Origin: Acytostelium subglobosum LB1
Taxonomy: Eukaryota; Evosea; Eumycetozoa; Acytosteliales; Acytosteliaceae
Length of the DNA stretch: 64,000 nt
Direction of reading: 5' to 3'
Assembly: GCF_000787575.1 (NCBI RefSeq)
Contig: NW_012236520.1
Coordinates: 1-64,000 of the forward strand
In this document: piece after piece, positions 46,335 through 49,970 of the stretch
Layout: each line of letters starts with the position of its first letter
Position numbering within the stretch: the stretch's first letter is position 1
The notes under the pieces: generated by a model
The model's input: only the letters and a program-made list of their open reading frames with translations
The model's database searches: none
Told to the model about the DNA's origin: nothing
Made by a program: the position numbers and the translations under genes

Positions 46335-47504
<1,170 letters not shown>

Positions 47505-47832: not shown

Positions 47833-48438
47833 ATGGATGTTGATAGTCGTTCAACATATGTCTCACGTATGTTATGATAATGATATGCATGCACTCGAAC
47901 AGCAGCAGCTGCAGCAGTAGCAGCTACAGCAGTAGTAGTGATTTGAACACAATATATTGATCAATACATACATTGATTGGATACATAAACATACAGAGAA
48001 TGGAACAGTGACAAAGAAGACATTCTGGAGCATAAAGACAATAAGAGAGTACTTTTGGTTCATTCTGAATCAGATTCTAGCATTGTATGTACAACATAAC
48101 AAAGGAGAGAGAAGATTCATTGTTAACATTATCGTTCATTTGACTCAAACGTTTATTTAGCTTCCACACATTGGTATCAGACCCTGCCACAGAGAAATAT
48201 AAGAACAAGGGAAGAGGAGGAAGCGATGGTTTTGGCGGATATGGTGGAGGAGGTGGTGGAGGTGGCGGAGGATATGGAAGAGGTGGAGGCGCTGGCGGCG
48301 GTGGCGGTAGAATGGGCACCATGAAGTCTATACGTATGTGTAAACAACATCAATAACAACATCAACTCGATCAACCATCACTAACTTTAGAGACACATAT
48401 AGCATCCTGCACAGTGCGAAGTGGGTGATCAAGATAGG
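47833..48438 (+). CDS. selenok: Selenoprotein K with in-frame TGA (Sec)
   Basis: SelK is a small ER-membrane protein of the ERAD and palmitoylation machinery. Exons 47833-47866, 47997-48084, 48161-48333 and 48392-48438; every junction is in phase. The order matches SelK: short N-terminus ending TYVSQNGTVTKKTFWS (family: VYIS-G-V...), one membrane helix (IREYFWFILNQILAFF then HTLVSDP), a Gly/Arg-rich tail and the RMGTM block, which aligns with the RRMGRI of animals. The last exon reads CTVRSG-TGA-SR then TAG. In SelK the selenocysteine sits near the C-terminus after Gly (animal GGUGR), so the TGA at 48427-48429 is best read as Sec, two residues from the end, giving 113 residues. If it is a plain stop the protein ends at Gly. 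Compare the two RNA structure entries downstream. Confidence 0.8.
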
Positions 48439-48479
48439 TTTAGCGCATAGGATCACAATAATACCTATGTGCTAGACTG
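48438..48479 (+). promoter_or_regulatory. 15-bp hairpin just after the Sec TGA
   Basis: Arms 48438-48452 and 48465-48479 pair over 15 bp with three G·U pairs around a 12-base A/T-rich loop. The inner 11 bp are TAGCGCATAGG against CCTATGTGCTA. The stem begins 8 nt after the in-frame TGA of selenoprotein K, the position at which the selenocysteine redefinition element lies in some animal selenoprotein genes. It lacks the ATGA/GA core of a SECIS. It could instead be a terminator-like 3' hairpin. Confidence 0.55.
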
Positions 48480-49158
48480 AATCAATACCGTCAAACTCTT
48501 GATACGAACAACCTCTGGGTGGCAATCCAAACAAACAAGTCATCACAAACAATCTTGACTTGACCTGGATTGTTACTCATTGTAATGAACTCCAACATCT
48601 CAACCTTTAACAAGGCGGTTTTGGAATGAAACAAACAGCATCGTATAACACAACAGGAGCACGACAACACGCGATCAACAATCTTTAGCACCAACAACAA
48701 CAACTACTAAAACTACTACTTCACAAGAGTTGTGTACATAAATCTACAAGTTACAAACTCATCATCTCATTACCATTCCCTGTCTTGTCCTGTCCTGTCC
48801 TGTCCATCCTGAATTAATTAATTAACCTCGTTGATAGGCTTTGCACACGCTAAACATAGACTAAAACAAGGTTGTCAAGTCGTGTTGTCTATCCACCAAA
48901 GACTCCCTCGTGAACACAACAACAGACACTACAACTACAAGTATTTCTTACATTCAATGAAAATTACCCATCAAAATTGATCAAAAAACATAATTTATTT
49001 TTAAAATTGTTGGGTGATGGCTGTTCAACAAACCCATTCCATTCTGCTTCAGCAACAACACTCATCCTTCAACAACAACACACTTCATCAATCTAACTCA
49101 CTCACTACATCATAAAGTCTAAGACTAAAAGATATAATAATACATAACATATAATATA
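48480..49158. other. Spacer, selenoprotein K 3' region to calponin gene
   Basis: Holds the SelK 3' UTR (with the SECIS candidate) and, from about 48900, the A/T- and CAA-rich promoter of the calponin-family gene. No further gene seen. Confidence 0.5.
48581..48636 (+). promoter_or_regulatory. Candidate SECIS element
   Basis: Downstream of selenoprotein K, ATGA at 48585-48588 is followed after 13 bases by AA (48602-48603), and TGA occurs at 48627-48629. The two sides can pair: TCCAA with TTGGA, then ATC with GGT and CTC-side pairs, with two mismatches; outside the core, TTGT pairs with ACAA. ATGA - about 13 nt - AA - TGA is the SECIS consensus layout. The pairing next to the core is imperfect, so this is a candidate only. 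Confidence 0.4.
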
Positions 49159-49970
49159 ATGACTGATACTAACTACCACTTTGGATTGGATGCTGATTTG
49201 GCTGCCAAGAGAGAGGCTCTCTACGACAGCAACCTCGAGAAGGACAGCATTGCATACATCGAGTCCACCCTTGGTGAGCCACTCCCAGCTGGCAAGTCCT
49301 TTGCTGAGGCCCTGAAGTCTGGTGTCATTCTCTGCAAGTAAGTATATGATACTACCTACTCCTCCTTCTCCAAGTATGATGCCAACCATTCTTTCAATCA
49401 ACCAATCACATAAAGGTTTGCCAACAAGATTAAGCCAGGTTCATGCAAGAGCTCCCCATCTGCTGCTCCATTCGTCCAGATGGAGAACATTGGAAACTAC
49501 CTCGCTTTCTGCAGAGGTCTTGGTATGGCCACCACCGACCTTTTCATGACTGTTGACCTCTTTGAGGCCAAGAACTTGAACCAAGTCATCCAGAACATCC
49601 AGGCCGTTAAGAGACTCGTTTCCGGAGGTGGCAAGCCAAGCGCTGTCCCAGCCAGACCACAGTAGAGCATTGTTCCAAACAAAGATGGAGAGAGTGATGA
49701 GAGAGAGAGAGAGAGAGTGAGAGTGGAGGGTGATGAGAGAGCAATAACAACAACAAGACTGGAGGAAGGAAGGAGGGCTGCTGGAGTTGGAAGTTGTGAG
49801 AACTCTGCTCTGCTATAACATTGACAACATTGATACTAATACTATACCTTCACCAATCAACCAACAGAGTCCCAATCAGCACTGGTCCAACCCCAGGTTT
49901 CTGTGGATCATGTGGCACCAAGGCCACCGCTGGCGCCAAGTTCTGTGGATCATGCGGAGGAAACCTCTAA
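49159..49970 (+). CDS. Calponin/transgelin-family actin-binding protein with C-terminal zinc-ribbon-like tail
   Basis: Exons 49159-49337, 49416-49661 and 49868-49970 give 175 residues. Residues about 22-135 are one calponin-homology domain: SIAYIESTLGEPLP, FAEALKSGVILCK, FANKIKPGSCKSS, FVQMENIGNYLAFCRGLG, DLFMTVDLFEAKNLNQVIQN, the type 3 CH pattern of transgelins, which bind or bundle F-actin. If exon 2 is simply read on, it ends at TAG (49663-49665) right after PARPQ. That TAG lies inside GTAGAG, a usable donor; splicing from 49661 to 49868 restores Gln and adds VPISTGPTPGFCGSCGTKAT then AGAKFCGSCGGNL, with two C-x2-C pairs. This tail looks like a zinc ribbon, and its repeated FCGSCG makes chance unlikely. 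Both forms could be made. Codon use is highly biased, pointing to strong expression. Confidence 0.85.

Follow-up and report, generated by a model that had tools for sequence, protein, structure and literature searches.

A selenoprotein K gene with a probable UGA selenocysteine codon and a SECIS-like element downstream in the social amoeba Acytostelium subglobosum

The locus described here is very probably a gene for selenoprotein K (SelK; SELENOK/SelG family), in which a UGA codon would be decoded as selenocysteine (Sec) by way of a SECIS element lying downstream. It lies in a stretch of 64,000 nucleotides of Acytostelium subglobosum LB1 (contig NW_012236520.1, positions 1 to 64,000 of the forward strand), which we call the window. 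The exon frame, the family match, the in-frame TGA, the SECIS-like hairpin and the genes of the Sec machinery can all be read from the DNA sequence.

The gene was read at 47833-48437 (+) as four exons that translate in a single frame. Exon 1 (47833-47866) encodes MDVDSRSTYVS and carries the first base of the codon for Q, ending at a GTATGT donor; exon 2 (47997-48084) encodes QNGTVTKKTFWSIKTIREYFWFILNQILA..., presumed by eye to be the membrane helix; and exon 3 (48161-48333) encodes the end of the hydrophobic part, the Gly-rich tail and RMGTMKSI, as indicated by both the translation and the Pfam match. The predicted introns 1 (47867-47996; 130 nt, GTATGT...ACAG) and 2 (48085-48160; 76 nt, GTATGT...TTAG) share the donor GTATGT with predicted intron 3, which runs from 48334 to 48390 with the nearest acceptor (ACTAACTTTAG) and to 48402 or 48414 with the alternatives. 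More than one acceptor is possible for the last exon: its candidate starts at 48391, 48403 and 48415 are spaced 12 nt apart, and all keep the frame. Starts at 48391 and 48403 translate to ...MKSIQTHIASCTVRSG*SR* and ...MKSIPSCTVRSG*SR*, with asterisks for TGA and TAG, and the start at 48415, read by hand, gives ...MKSI-L-RSGUSR; the predicted protein has 113, 109 or 105 residues including Sec, according to the acceptor. Whichever acceptor is used, the terminus is SG-TGA-SR-TAG and the exon ends at 48437. In both sequence and translation, the TGA that we take as the putative Sec codon (48426-48428) stands near the C terminus and is followed by two codons and the TAG stop codon (48435-48437).

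A preliminary description had proposed that a SelK gene is hidden in phase-consistent exons at 47833-48438, with a last exon reading SG-TGA-SR-TAG. The single-frame translation and the Pfam SelK_SelG match bear out the hidden gene, the last exon reads as proposed, and the coordinates stand in all but the end, which is 48437. A TGA combined with a short last exon of ambiguous start could easily cause automatic annotation to truncate such a gene, and the further proposal of that description, that annotation of the usual kind would miss the gene or end it too soon, is plausible. By eye, the upstream neighbour (about 46335-47504, +) resembles an NAD-dependent sugar-nucleotide epimerase of the GDP-fucose synthase type, and the downstream neighbour (from 49160, +), which starts MTDTNYHFGLDADLAAKREAL, resembles a calponin-homology protein.

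Animal SelK has a short N-terminus, one hydrophobic segment, a Gly/Arg-rich tail and Sec near the C terminus, and this layout is common to animal SelK/SelG and the predicted A. subglobosum protein, in which the hydrophobic segment was recognized by eye. The signature of the family is GGU, which in animals is followed by a few residues, whereas the protein described here would end in SGU-SR. The likeness to animal SelK/SELENOK and SelG extends to the family profile: Pfam SelK_SelG (PF10961; curated cut-off 23.3 bits) matched residues 8-89, with 58.4 bits for the 113-residue form and 57.2 bits for the 105-residue form. Because the Gly-rich tail could inflate this score, the 59 N-terminal residues were scored separately, and they reached 47.7 bits without the tail. 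At these scores the match is not a chance one, and the whole-protein and tail-free values support the original naming of the gene as SelK.

When the 59-residue N-terminus was searched against the A. subglobosum genome up to E 10, it matched two places, exon 2 (the top match) and exon 3 of this gene. Both places belong to one gene, which suggests that SelK is present as a single copy within the reach of this search. PF10961 itself had no match in the unspliced genome, nor in the 14 prokaryote control genomes; the former result presumably reflects the division of the gene over small exons in a search that ignores introns. The empty profile search is therefore no evidence of absence. A PDB search with the whole protein found, up to E 1, 51 distinct sequences, of which none bears the name SelK; the two alignments examined proved to be Gly-rich linkers and were rejected.

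A SECIS-like element of type II layout was identified at 48581-48634 (+), beginning 144 nt beyond the TAG stop codon, by a covariance-model match, a descriptor scan, covariation and a fold without flanks. It has a TGTA-ATGA core and an interrupted stem in which 9 of 11 positions are paired, and its upper part consists of a 4-nt 5' bulge (TCAA), a 4-bp upper stem (CCTT/AAGG) and a 3' GA. The core, TGTAATGA at 48581-48588, places UGUA directly 5' of AUGA. The full descriptor, which includes this core, matched one place in the window on both strands together and none of 3000 shuffles of 48438-49159. Looser descriptors with the core ATGA were less selective: with at least 9 of 11 pairs required, 5 of 3000 shuffles of the 3' region matched, as did 3 plus-strand but no minus-strand places in the window; with at least 8 pairs, 24 of 3000 shuffles matched, along with 12 plus-strand and 9 minus-strand places. 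By these counts the hairpin carries less weight by itself than in combination with TGTAATGA. Letters alone mean nothing, because they occur at chance levels: the window contains three copies of TGTAATGA, one of them at 48581, where chance would give 5.1, and it contains the unpaired SECIS pattern (core, AA and TGA) twice, where chance would give 1.74, a count equalled in 45 of 100 shuffles.

Because the descriptor had been written with the SelK candidate in view, we sought a test that did not use the SelK sequence. The covariance model R1 was built only from the SECIS candidates of the SPS2, Sep15-like and deiodinase-like genes described below, with the SelK sequence excluded. Its best match in the window was 48581-48634 (+), with 27.8 bits and E 7.2e-4, a value to be read as rough, as with covariance models generally, and for a stem layout that, like that of the descriptor, was drawn after the SelK candidate was known. 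The only other match up to E 10 scored 13.7 bits (E 1.4). Up to E 10, Rfam recognized no SECIS in the SelK candidate, and it also missed the three other SECIS candidates; its silence is therefore uninformative. Folded with its flanks, the SelK stretch was not unusually stable (z 0.32, with 121 of 200 shuffles at least as stable), and its minimum free energy (MFE) structure differed from the SECIS hairpin.

Three further selenoprotein genes of the genome each have, by eye, a similar hairpin behind the stop codon. The SPS2 gene, recovered as selD matches (L004 and L005; G000:C45 55863-56354 and 56449-56583, minus strand), has KG-TGA-GCK in frame and its hairpin at L004 976-922. The Sep15-like gene (L014; G000:C37:107761-107838, minus strand) has one in-frame TGA, CR-TGA-KLN, and its hairpin at L014 1148-1093; its frame scored 24.5 bits alone and 34.6 bits with its neighbours, for a cut-off of 26. 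The deiodinase-like gene (L015; G000:C37:224017-224547, minus strand) scored 122.5 bits against its profile and has one in-frame TGA, CGSYT-TGA-PPFRDK, with its hairpin at L015 1403-1348.

In an alignment of the four SECIS sequences that was fitted to the structure, pairing holds in 78.8% of the cells, and both sides have changed in 9 of the 13 pairs. Neither value was reached in 500 shuffles, and structures slid along the alignment paired in at most 50.0% of cells. A MAFFT alignment of the four sequences, A2, placed gaps within the stem and was set aside. Trimmed and folded without flanks, the four elements had a similar architecture in all cases (4/4). We see about even chances that the SECIS elements of these four unrelated genes share, beyond a U/AGUAAUGA core, a single geometry consisting of an 11-position stem, near-fixed mismatches and paired letter changes. 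The mismatches would lie at position 1 or 2 beside the core and at position 8 or 9, and a 5' bulge containing A would also belong to the geometry, as would a small upper stem.

The published SECIS elements of Dictyostelium discoideum have UGUA directly before the core, together with an apical AAA bulge and a U-U mismatch immediately after the core, in the description given in PMC2375036. The SelK candidate resembles them in its UGUA before the core and its type II layout, and as far as that description goes it differs in two respects: its bulge is TCAA, not AAA, and the U-U mismatch beside the core is missing. In place of the mismatch, the first stem position, which is C.C or C.U in the three other candidates, is A-U, and the second is C.A.

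The genome also encodes the machinery that Sec insertion would need. A tRNA-Sec was found with 68.2 bits (gathering 47), to which ARAGORN assigns the anticodon TCA; a second match of 37.3 bits, below the cut-off, was rejected as a tRNA-Ser. SepSecS scored 430.4 bits against its profile, and two exons of SPS2 scored 128.1 bits (cut-off 125) and 38.6 bits. The selB profile had 26 matches in the genome, none above its cut-off, and the eEFSec gene appeared among them as two lower-ranked fragments on contig C49 (88.5 and 83.9 bits). At 1.3e-55, its product (L023) matched PDB entry 5izk and chain E of 7zjw, followed after the eEFSec entries by SelB (4ac9) at 5.2e-27. Two other candidates were set aside by eye, the best selB match (L006) as mitochondrial EF-Tu-like and L024 as an EF-1-alpha-like protein. 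Among 7 L7Ae matches the SBP2 gene (L022) scored lowest, at 22.3 bits against a cut-off of 22.1, and the sole PDB match of its product up to E 0.01 was SECIS-binding protein 2 (7zjw), at 2.2e-21. The preliminary description, which had suggested Sec from the position of the codon only, had treated a genome lacking this machinery as evidence against its suggestion; Sec-tRNA, eEFSec, SBP2 and SPS2 are all there, with SepSecS in addition, and they and the SECIS-like element recovered by R1 lend the suggestion support.

It is very improbable that the gene is SelK with its TGA serving as an ordinary stop, so that the protein ends ...RSG and Sec use was lost or never applied. The SGU found in place of the GGU signature would agree with such an ending, as would a SECIS hairpin that is not the MFE fold when flanks are included and the inexact fit to two published SECIS features of D. 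discoideum. Against an ordinary stop stand the SECIS-like element, recovered with a model to which only other genes contributed, the SR-TAG that follows the TGA directly and in frame, and the presence of the Sec machinery in the genome. Least probable of all is a C terminus without Sec, arising because intron 3 is retained (read by hand, ...MKSIRMCKQHQ and then TAA) or the last exon is a different one, for which the three possible acceptors within 24 nt could be cited, but against which stand a GTATGT donor identical to those of introns 1 and 2, the arrival of all three acceptors at SG-TGA-SR-TAG, and a SECIS that would be left with no UGA to serve.

On the preferred reading, in which the UGA encodes Sec, the SelK mRNA would be spliced from four exons and the ribosome would reach the UGA close to the 3' end of the coding part. 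Bound to the SECIS hairpin of the 3' UTR, SBP2 would bring eEFSec with Sec-tRNA to the UGA at 48426; Sec would be inserted there, and Ser-Arg would complete the chain before the UAG stop. SelK is an ER-membrane protein whose tail lies in the cytosol and whose Sec makes the C terminus redox-active. For the A. subglobosum protein we infer the same location and redox role, along with the splicing and the Sec insertion themselves.

A Sec-containing SelK and SECIS elements of the UGUA type were already known from D. discoideum in 2007, and A. subglobosum would be alike in having such a SelK in a social amoeba. The five selenoproteins listed for D. discoideum at that time are SelK, SPS2, Sep15, MSP and a deiodinase-like protein (PMC2375036), and the figure of five is repeated in a 2026 account (PMC13063481). 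The search here covered four of these, SelK, SPS2, Sep15 and the deiodinase-like protein, and found all four, the companions of SelK covered by the search being shared by the two species. In the 75Se labelling reported for D. discoideum, four bands were seen but SelK was not (PMC2375036). The later account describes the only Sec-tRNA gene of D. discoideum as apparently repressed at all stages that it analysed (PMC13063481). It also gives a single Sec for each D. discoideum selenoprotein (PMC13063481), in contrast to the two reported in MSP (PMC2375036). The literature searched, which took in few subscription journals, held no account of SelK in dictyostelids other than D. discoideum.

The gene adds a well-supported Sec-containing SelK outside the animals, accompanied in the same genome by a SECIS candidate and the Sec machinery. 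The four SECIS candidates of this genome, with their shared layout, provide a test set for the UGUA-type SECIS of social amoebae. If the shared geometry is true, it would extend the observation made in D. discoideum in 2007, with the extra features present in a changed version, and it would suggest a lineage-specific constraint imposed by SBP2 or a partner.
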